Source: Candidatus Endomicrobium procryptotermitis
GTDB taxonomy: Bacteria > Elusimicrobiota > Endomicrobiia > Endomicrobiales > Endomicrobiaceae
Direction of reading: 5' to 3'
Length of the DNA: 64,000 nt
NCBI GenBank assembly: GCA_031279415.1
Contig: JAITIP010000037.1
Coordinates: forward strand, 1 to 64,000
The position numbers and the translations under genes are program-made. Shown piece after piece: positions 44,009-46,641 of this stretch (within the stretch, counting starts at the first letter, position 1; the number at the start of each line of letters is the position of its first letter). Under the pieces are notes generated by a model. That model was not told the DNA's origin. It ran no database searches and saw nothing but the letters and a program-made list of their open reading frames with translations.

Positions 44009-44037
44009 TTGACAAGTTTGTCAACAAATTATAAAAT
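44009..44037 (+). promoter_or_regulatory. consensus promoter with palindrome over the -35
   Basis: TTGACA (44009-44014) and TAAAAT (44032-44037) are 17 bases apart. The -35 is part of the inverted repeat TTGACAAGTTTGTCAA (44009-44024; 7-base arms, 2-base gap), a possible operator. Transcription would start near 44044, just at the ribosome binding site of the zapB-like gene. The preceding 43815-44008 is AT-rich with nothing else recognised. Confidence 0.75.
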
Positions 44038-44052: not shown

Positions 44053-44283
44053 ATGGAAAATCTCGAAATTTTATCAATAAAGATTAAAAAAGCAGTGGAA
44101 AAGCTTAAAAAGCTCAATGATGAGAATTTAAGGCTTAAAGCAGAAATAAATTTTTTAAGAAAAGAAAGCGAAAATAGCAGGGAAAAAATCGGAGAATACA
44201 CTATACTAAAAGAAAATGCAGAAAAGGCCGTCATAAAAATAGAAAGAATTTTGAAAAAAATAGATACGGTCAAGGTAAGATAA
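44053..44283 (+). CDS. small coiled-coil protein, ZapB-like
   Basis: The 76-residue protein is almost entirely a charged coiled coil (heptads from about 4 to 70) without a membrane segment. Its size, composition and position immediately before zapA resemble ZapB-type division proteins, which bind ZapA at the Z-ring, but the sequence has no diagnostic motif. GGAAAGG precedes its ATG; the mRNA leader is very short. Two bases separate it from zapA. Confidence 0.65.
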   Translation: MENLEILSIKIKKAVEKLKKLNDENLRLKAEINFLRKESENSREKIGEYTILKENAEKAVIKIERILKKIDTVKVR

Positions 44284-44285
44284 TT

Positions 44286-44576
44286 ATGGCAACTGCCCGT
44301 ACAAGAATAATGGGAAGAGATATAGATATTAATGTAGATGAGATGGACGAATTGAGTTTTTCAAGTGTAGTAAATTATGTAAACGATCAATGGCAGGAAG
44401 TACAACGGGATAATTCAAACGTGCCTGACACTCAGAAAATCGCTGCGATGACCGCAATTAAAATTGCGGCTGAACTTCTTAAAACTAAAGGTTTGCAAGA
44501 AAGTATTTCAGATAATTACGAAAGAAAAATCAAAGAGTTGATTAAACTGCTTGAAGAAGTAGAATATTCTAATTAA
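44286..44576 (+). CDS. zapA: cell division protein ZapA
   Basis: ZapA bundles FtsZ filaments at mid-cell. The 96-residue protein has the N-terminal beta strands with Arg-Ile-Met-Gly-Arg-Asp-Ile, a central helix with Val-Asn-Tyr-Val-Asn (the family Tyr-Val-(Asp/Asn) pattern) and a long C-terminal coiled coil from about residue 50. It lies directly upstream of a 6S RNA and the rarA-fau pair, echoing the zapA-ssrS-fau order of gammaproteobacteria. Confidence 0.8.
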   Translation: MATARTRIMGRDIDINVDEMDELSFSSVVNYVNDQWQEVQRDNSNVPDTQKIAAMTAIKIAAELLKTKGLQESISDNYERKIKELIKLLEEVEYSN

Positions 44577-44597
44577 AACTGAAATGCTTTAATGTTT

Positions 44598-44751
44598 TTC
44601 CTGCAGTGTTGGCGAACGTTTTAAACGTATTGAATCCTACAGGTCCTATTTAAGAGAACAGCAGTCGAGCGTATGCTCGTGGGCTTATGCCACTGTATCT
44701 CACTTATTAATGAGGGCTTTCATTCGTTAAAAACTAGCGGCACTGCGGGGA
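44598..44751 (+). ncRNA. ssrS: 6S RNA
   Basis: 6S RNA mimics an open promoter and traps the housekeeping RNA polymerase. The 5' end (44598-44608, TTCCTGCAGTG) pairs over 11 positions with the 3' end (44741-44751, CACTGCGGGGA), and pairing resumes with TTTTAAACG (44620-44628) against CGTTAAAAA (44725-44733). An apical stem has CGAGC-GTAT-GCTCG (44667-44680), very close to the GAGCAUGCUC apex of E. coli 6S, supported by AGAACAG/CTGT-type pairing below. The middle is largely unpaired, giving the required central bubble. A run of eight Ts (44752-44759) follows as terminator. Location between zapA and rarA-fau matches known ssrS synteny. Confidence 0.82.
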
Positions 44752-44771
44752 TTTTTTTTGTGGTATTCGCA

Positions 44772-46091
44772 ATGAAACAGACTAACTTTCTTGAAAATGA
44801 GGCAAATAATAAAAACAAGCCTTTGGCCGCGCGGATGTCGCCCAAAAATTTTGAAGATTTTATGGGGCAGGAAAGTATAGTCGGTGACGATAAGCTTTTG
44901 CGACGATTGATTGAAGCAGACAATTTGGGGTCAGTAATTTTTTTCGGTCCTTCCGGTACGGGAAAAAGTGCTTTGGCGAGAATTATAGCTTCAAAAACAA
45001 AAGCTTATTTTGAAGAAGCTAATGCCGTAACGATAGGAATTGCTGACATAAGAAAAATTATCGATCAGGCAAAAGCCAGAATTGAAATGAGCAGCAAAAA
45101 GACGATTTTAATGCTTGACGAAATCCATCATTTTAACCGCTCTCAGCAGGATGCACTGCTGCCGGACGTTGAAAGAGGGTTGATAACTTTAATAGGAATC
45201 ACTACTGAGAATCCGTTTTTTTATATCAATGCTGCGATTCTTTCAAGAAGCATGGTTTTTGAATTTCAAACTCTTTCAAAAGAAGCGCTTTCAAAAATTA
45301 TGGAATCGGCTTTAAAAGACAAAGTAAACGGGTTGGGAAATTACAAAGTGGAAATGTCGCAGGAAGCAAAACTACATTTGATTTTGAACGCTAATGGAGA
45401 TGCAAGAAAACTGCTTAACGCGCTTGAAGTAGGCGCACTTTCAACGAAAGTAAACGAGAAAGGAGTCAGGGCTTTTGATATTTCTGTTGCACAAGAATCT
45501 ATGCAGAAAAGAGCGATTTTGTACGACCGTTCAGGAGATGCGCATTACGATCATATTTCGGCTTTCATTAAATCCATGAGGGGCAGCGATCCTGATGCTG
45601 CGGTTTATTGGATGGCTAAAATGCTTGCAGCAGGCGAAGAACCGCGCTTTATTGCAAGAAGAATAATAATATGTGCTTCCGAAGATGTAGGAATGGCTGA
45701 TCCGCGTGCTTTAATGCTTGCGGTATCGGCATTGCACGCAGTTCAGTTTGTAGGTATGCCAGAAGCCAGAATAATTTTGGCTCAGGCGGCCATATATGTA
45801 GCGTGTTCCCCAAAGTCCAATACGTCTTATATGGCTGTGGAAGCTGCTTTAGACGAGGTAAAAAATGGAAAAGTCCGCAGCGTTCCAAACCATTTAAAAG
45901 ACGCAAATCTTGACGGAGAAAAGCTTGGACATGGGCATGGATACAAATATCCACATGATTACAAAGGACATTTTGTCGAGCAGCAGTACTGGACTGATCC
46001 GATAGAATTTTATAAACCGACAAGTGAAGGATTTGAGGTGAAAATTCGTGAACGATTACTTGGAATCAGAAAAAAGAAAAGTAAGATATGA
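44772..46091 (+). CDS. rarA: replication-associated recombination ATPase RarA (MgsA)
   Basis: RarA is an AAA+ clamp-loader-like ATPase acting at stalled forks. The 439-residue protein from ATG 44772 has Leu-Ala-Ala-Arg-Met-Ser-Pro near its start, Walker A Gly-Pro-Ser-Gly-Thr-Gly-Lys-Ser, Walker B Met-Leu-Asp-Glu-Ile-His, sensor Thr-Thr-Glu-Asn-Pro and the MgsA C-terminal tetramerisation domain ending in Lys-Tyr-Pro-His-Asp. An in-frame ATG at 44673 lies inside the 6S RNA and is rejected. No clear Shine-Dalgarno is visible. It overlaps fau by 44 bases. Confidence 0.93.
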   Translation: MKQTNFLENEANNKNKPLAARMSPKNFEDFMGQESIVGDDKLLRRLIEADNLGSVIFFGPSGTGKSALARIIASKTKAYFEEANAVTIGIADIRKIIDQAKARIEMSSKKTILMLDEIHHFNRSQQDALLPDVERGLITLIGITTENPFFYINAAILSRSMVFEFQTLSKEALSKIMESALKDKVNGLGNYKVEMSQEAKLHLILNANGDARKLLNALEVGALSTKVNEKGVRAFDISVAQESMQKRAILYDRSGDAHYDHISAFIKSMRGSDPDAAVYWMAKMLAAGEEPRFIARRIIICASEDVGMADPRALMLAVSALHAVQFVGMPEARIILAQAAIYVACSPKSNTSYMAVEAALDEVKNGKVRSVPNHLKDANLDGEKLGHGHGYKYPHDYKGHFVEQQYWTDPIEFYKPTSEGFEVKIRERLLGIRKKKSKI

Positions 46092-46641
46092 GTTTTTAAA
46101 TTTGAGAAACAGGATAGAGCCTATTTTGTCGTCAGCTTACAGCGGCATGATTTTTGCTAGAATTAAAGAATTCCCTGTTTATGAAAAGGCAAAAACTGTG
46201 ATGTTTTATTTATCTTACGGCTCTGAAGTTGTAACTGATGCAATGGTATCTTCTTCTATAGAAGAAGGTAAGATTGTTGCGGTTCCTGCCATACAAAATC
46301 CTGGTGATGGAAATATGGTTGCCGTAAAGTTACTAAAGCTTGAGGATGCATACCAGTCCGTATATGGAATAAGGCAGCCCGAAATAAATCAGGAAGATAT
46401 ATTGGAAAAAGATGAAATAGATTTAGTCTTTGTTCCTGGTATAGCTTTTGATTATGACGGTTTCAGGATAGGGTACGGAAAAGGCTATTTTGACAGATGG
46501 CTTGAAGGTATACCGCCAGAAAAGACTATAGGCATTGCATATGATTTTCAGCTTACGGACAAAATGCCGGCCGGAAAATATGATATGCCGGTGGGTATGA
46601 TTATTACCGAAAAAAGAATTATTCAGATCAAAAAAAATTAA
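46048..46641 (+). CDS. fau: 5-formyltetrahydrofolate cyclo-ligase
   Basis: The enzyme converts 5-formyl-THF to 5,10-methenyl-THF with ATP. The 197-residue protein shows the family C-terminal block Gly-Tyr-Gly-Lys-Gly-Tyr-Phe-Asp-Arg near 147-155 and Asp-Met-Pro-Val at the end. It starts with GTG, with GAGGTG seven bases upstream. Linkage to ssrS matches ygfA in E. coli, where both are co-transcribed. Confidence 0.92.
   Translation: MNDYLESEKRKVRYEFLNLRNRIEPILSSAYSGMIFARIKEFPVYEKAKTVMFYLSYGSEVVTDAMVSSSIEEGKIVAVPAIQNPGDGNMVAVKLLKLEDAYQSVYGIRQPEINQEDILEKDEIDLVFVPGIAFDYDGFRIGYGKGYFDRWLEGIPPEKTIGIAYDFQLTDKMPAGKYDMPVGMIITEKRIIQIKKN

Follow-up and report, generated by a model that had tools for sequence, protein, structure and literature searches.

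6S RNA is known to restrain RNA polymerase on a global scale. The RNAs of this family are rod-shaped, imitate an open promoter and bind RNA polymerase with the housekeeping sigma factor, holding the polymerase back in slow growth until it is released by pRNA synthesis on the 6S RNA template. In Escherichia coli, the 6S RNA gene (ssrS, NC_000913 3055983-3056165) is 183 nt long and lies between zapA, upstream, and fau, downstream, all three on one strand. The 6S RNAs of lactic acid bacteria and 6S-1 of Bacillus subtilis form the canonical rod and have rarA close by (in lactic acid bacteria, rarA is upstream and uspA downstream), and GG at positions 4/5 or 5/6 is a conserved trait of the known, verified pRNAs (PMC8414754). 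The experimentally verified 6S RNA of Aquifex aeolicus has pheT as a listed neighbour (PMC4227106). A literature search, with the main survey of 6S distribution (Wehner 2014) outside its scope, found no report linking 6S RNA with Endomicrobium or Elusimicrobia.

We analyzed a 64,000-nucleotide stretch of DNA (the window) from an Endomicrobium-like bacterium, for which a preliminary description, made from the letters alone, had claimed a 6S RNA gene between zapA and rarA-fau and had proposed the Rfam 6S covariance model and covariation in relatives as checks. The Rfam 6S model (RF00013) matched positions 44595-44755 of the plus strand over its full length (positions 1-187 of the 187 in the model; cmscan, E 2.3e-8). 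The score of 48.8 bits exceeds the curated cut-off of 46.4 bits by only 2.4 bits, and no other Rfam family approached its own cut-off. Many close relatives fall under the cut-off: 38 of 60 genomes gave a match, 24 of them above it. The identities of the flanking genes were confirmed with Pfam, and the features of the locus are as follows.

44053-44283, plus strand: zapB-like gene (PF06005, E 1.7e-4, under the curated cut-off; present in 38/38 relatives)
44286-44576, plus strand: zapA (PF05164, 5.7e-14)
44595-44755, plus strand: 6S RNA gene, ssrS (RF00013; mature ends probably near 44598 and 44752-44759)
44598-44611, plus strand: closing helix, 5' strand (from the fold; partner 44738-44751)
44618-44634, plus strand: inner helix, 5' strand (from the fold; partner 44719-44734)
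44627-44640, plus strand: predicted pRNA template (pRNA 5'-GUAGGAUUCAAUAC; start opposite C44640)
44635-44641, plus strand: central bubble, unpaired 5' side, TCCTACA (minimum-energy fold)
44654-44665, plus strand: apical stem, 5' side, GAGA and GCAGT (from the fold; partner 44692-44701)
44666-44679, plus strand: apical hairpin CGAGC-GTAT-GCTCG (from the fold; sequence differs outside Endomicrobiaceae)
44738-44751, plus strand: closing helix, 3' strand (from the fold and the 38-sequence alignment)
44752-44759, plus strand: U-tract after the closing helix (with the helix, a likely intrinsic terminator)
44772-46091, plus strand: rarA, also mgsA (Pfam MgsA_C, 2.9e-68; tblastn from the first residue)
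46048-46641, plus strand: fau, 5-formyltetrahydrofolate cyclo-ligase (PF01812, 5-FTHF_cyc-lig, 1.6e-38)

The genes for RNase Y and YmdB come after fau. The mechanically called open reading frame of rarA begins at 44673, inside the RNA, and homology puts the start at the ATG at 44772, so that the warning of a miscalled start was justified. The nearest named relatives of the RarA protein, each at 88%, come from Candidatus Endomicrobium neocapritermitis and from another Endomicrobia bacterium. The Rfam 6S model found no second match in the genome (2.0 Mb, 46 contigs). Besides the housekeeping sigma gene, this genome has two other genes of the sigma-70 type. A model built from 38 aligned Elusimicrobiota sequences scores the window 6S at 148.8 bits, the window sequence being part of its training set, and detects 6S in 78 of 199 genomes of the phylum; it also picks up Rfam-called 6S at several Omnitrophota, SAR324 and Bacillota loci, and misses E. 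coli ssrS. We are nearly certain that the locus is the sole 6S RNA (ssrS) gene of this member of the Endomicrobiia (Elusimicrobiota), given the full-length match over the cut-off, the covariation in relatives and the gene order that mirrors zapA-ssrS-fau.

The predicted fold of 44590-44765 has an energy of -55.8 kcal/mol; dinucleotide-shuffled sequences give -42.2 +/- 4.1 (z -3.4), and one of the 200 shuffles folded as stably. The closing helix is a gapless run of 14 pairs, of which the terminal 11-position pairing noted before (44598-44608 with 44741-44751) is the outer part, and the eight Ts follow directly after it. The second helix that had been proposed exists with slightly shifted limits (44618-44622 with 44730-44734 and 44624-44627 with 44725-44728). 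Minimum-energy folding leaves the 5' side of the bubble unpaired, both in the window and in most relatives. The apical hairpin also appears in the fold as described; its likeness to that of E. coli, which has GAGCATGCTCG there, is weak evidence because the apex differs among Elusimicrobiota families, and we dropped it as an argument. Compared with the E. coli RNA, with which it shares the rod fold, the window 6S is shorter (about 155 against 183 nt), and its closing helix runs straight into the U-tract, unlike that of E. coli.

Covariation was counted on 38 aligned sequences that had been gathered with the 6S model. With RNAalifold, only 19 pairs came out of the MAFFT alignment; therefore we took the structure from the window fold, towards which the count leans, and scored that alignment against it. 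Pairing reaches 98.1% in the closing helix, where 7 of the 14 pairs show two-sided changes, and inner helices 2-4 are 78.6-100% paired with two-sided changes in most pairs; in the apical stem, the column pair 70/120 is A-U in 18 sequences, G-C in 12 and G-U in 7. Over the whole structure, 88.7% of the cells are paired (78.6% when shuffled), 24 of 35 pairs show two-sided changes (none of 500 shuffles being as good), and the covariation score is 0.352, compared with 0.177 for shuffles and 0.077-0.107 with the partner strand slid by 1-3 columns. Relatedness alone can beat shuffles, but the slid controls retain the relatedness and the difference is large. The covariation in relatives is strong, and it backs the rod by which a 6S RNA is recognized, made up of a closing stem, a central bubble that is open, and an apical stem.

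The predicted template, on the 5' side of the bubble, would yield GUAGGAUUC when copied from C44640 onwards, and the predicted pRNAs of relatives are GUCGGCUU, AUCGGAAU and similar; the E. coli template read in the same way gives AUCGGCUCAG. The E. coli pRNA template AUCGGCUC is similar to GUAGGAUUC in the window and to GUCGGCUU in some relatives. The template CC at 44636-44637 is invariant (38/38) and gives the predicted pRNA, like that of E. coli, GG at positions 4/5, and Infernal sets the CCUA of the window against CCgA of the RF00013 model. The position of the template and its conserved GG agree with what is described for 6S RNAs, including those of lactic acid bacteria and B. subtilis (PMC8414754), the start at C44640 being placed by alignment and predicted from sequence. 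The marginal Rfam score would also fit a different polymerase-binding RNA resembling 6S, whether Ms1-like or of an unnamed class, but with no rival Rfam family near its cut-off, a pRNA template matching those of E. coli and lactic acid bacteria, and neighbours of the 6S type, we give this explanation hardly any credence.

As a member of the 6S family, the RNA of the window may be expected to act by the family mechanism, in which the polymerase would use it as a template and start the pRNA opposite C44640. Transcription of 6S and that of zapB-zapA would both end at the closing helix with its U-tract, and rarA would owe part of its expression to read-through. The T-rich run is present at 38/38 loci and is retained in decayed copies. 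A conserved promoter was sought directly upstream of 6S and none was clear, so that the 5' end of the transcript is uncertain; a sigma-70-like site with an 11/12 match stands before zapB (44009-44037), but such sites are no more frequent in this region than expected by chance. At five loci (L006, L027, L111, L112 and L164), rarA starts a few nucleotides from the U-tract, with little room for a promoter or ribosome site, which suggests read-through from 6S to rarA there.

Several reduced-genome relatives show what becomes of such an element. In genus g8 (genomes of 0.2-1.4 Mb), whose members are inferred to be endosymbionts of gut flagellates, many small genomes are without 6S according to the Elusimicrobiota-built model. 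We read rarA and its upstream region directly in ten g8 genomes with a weak or no 6S match (L160-L169, in G011, G137, G026, G186, G148, G193, G168, G161, G123 and G113, respectively), and found that 6S is decaying where it stands, with zapA and rarA intact on either side. The remnants measure 159 nt (64 bits, L164), 144 nt (L160), 105 nt (L161 and L166) and 61 nt (L162), the last consisting of scarcely anything beyond the closing helix and U-tract. L160, L161, L164 and L166 have a broken template CC, the remnant of L165 is marginal, and L163 and L167-L169 have no clear 6S remnant upstream of rarA. In about half of the ten loci, the closing helix and U-tract outlast the template and the middle, and judging from sequence, this decay can be read as a loss of 6S function with the terminator surviving.

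The short terminator-like hairpins that persist in some reduced relatives, such as the 61 nt of L162, together with the position of the closing helix and U-tract between zapA and rarA and the rarA starts close behind the U-tract in several genomes, could suggest that the element is merely an elaborate intrinsic terminator of zapB-zapA, or a leader of rarA, and yields no trans-acting RNA. A terminator, however, needs neither the full length nor the inner helices, open bubble and template CC, all of which are retained in 38/38 intact copies, and these features are the first to be lost when the element shrinks. With the full-length 6S model match also against it, we regard this explanation as very improbable, and we keep to a 6S RNA whose closing helix may serve in addition as a terminator.

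Among g8 genomes, a second sigma-70-type gene is found in 9 of 18 with intact 6S (two of the genes broken; G029, G035, G088, G091, G093, G105, G108, G134 and G152) and in 0 of 17 with decayed or missing 6S (Fisher p 0.001, a value that overstates the case because the genomes are related and unequal in size and completeness). Nine g8 genomes have kept an intact 6S alongside a single sigma gene. Shortened 6S-like elements, either mini-6S RNAs or remnants, stand before rarA in larger genomes of the class to which g8 belongs (L171:2898-2983, minus strand, 86 nt; L172:1330-1443, plus strand, 114 nt).

The order of genes around 6S is strongly conserved in the phylum. All 38 Elusimicrobiota loci have zapB-zapA immediately upstream in the same orientation. 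The next gene downstream is rarA (35/38) or fau (3/38), and fau follows rarA in the window and at most other loci that extend far enough. At three loci of outer classes (L003, L005 and L009), pheT stands ahead of zapB; the window has no pheT beside its 6S locus, unlike A. aeolicus. Other phyla were sampled via rarA homologues or genomes so found, which could inflate the share of rarA in the first sample and much less in the phylum-wide draw of Omnitrophota. In Omnitrophota, rarA adjoins 6S in 27 of 30 loci, with pheT on the other side in 19; Verrucomicrobiota loci have pheT in 5/5 and rarA in 2/5 (pheT being upstream in these phyla, as in outer Elusimicrobiota), and rarA also adjoins 6S in Planctomycetota and Clostridia. 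In SAR324, zapA adjoins 6S in 28 of 31 loci (two of three ZapA proteins tested pass the Pfam cut-off), and two regions downstream of 6S carry genes other than fau. At one Omnitrophota locus (L221:1501-1663), 6S was called antisense to both flanking genes (pheT and rarA), probably a strand miscall from the near-palindromic rod. Two genomes carry two 6S matches each: G217, SAR324-type (L137 and L159), and G287, Omnitrophota (contigs C76, with L199, and C78).

The window thus mirrors the zapA-ssrS-fau linkage of gammaproteobacteria, in the same place and on the same strand as in E. coli, as had been noticed. That fau accompanies 6S outside gammaproteobacteria, in several classes, had already been reported (PMC9130861, which cites Barrick 2005 and Wehner 2014). 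In the window, rarA stands between 6S and fau, unlike in E. coli, which the preliminary description had taken as an insertion. This is doubtful, because 6S and rarA are often neighbours in other phyla, and also in lactic acid bacteria, where rarA lies on the other side of 6S (PMC8414754), and rarA may therefore be an old neighbour. The Elusimicrobiota unite the known contexts as (pheT)-zapB-zapA-6S-rarA-fau, and the 6S neighbourhoods of the various phyla may have a common ancestry. We tentatively propose, at somewhat less than even chances, that the order pheT-zapB-zapA-6S-rarA-fau, which outer Elusimicrobiota have in full, goes back to an old bacterial neighbourhood and survives in differing parts in other phyla, that the closing helix doubles as the zapBA terminator, and that 6S decays to the bare terminator in relatives with shrinking genomes, and there only where the second sigma factor has been lost.

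The 6S gene itself is well supported as an ordinary one from a phylum with little 6S description, and it is now pinned down, its pRNA is predicted and the start of rarA is corrected. Of more interest are the complete neighbourhood and the stepwise decay. In the conserved order, the zapA/fau context known from Proteobacteria meets the rarA context known from Firmicutes, and the joined contexts help to judge whether bacterial 6S genes share one ancestral locus, so that the 6S neighbourhood merits comparative study. The graded decay in close relatives offers a natural series for asking when cells can dispense with 6S RNA.
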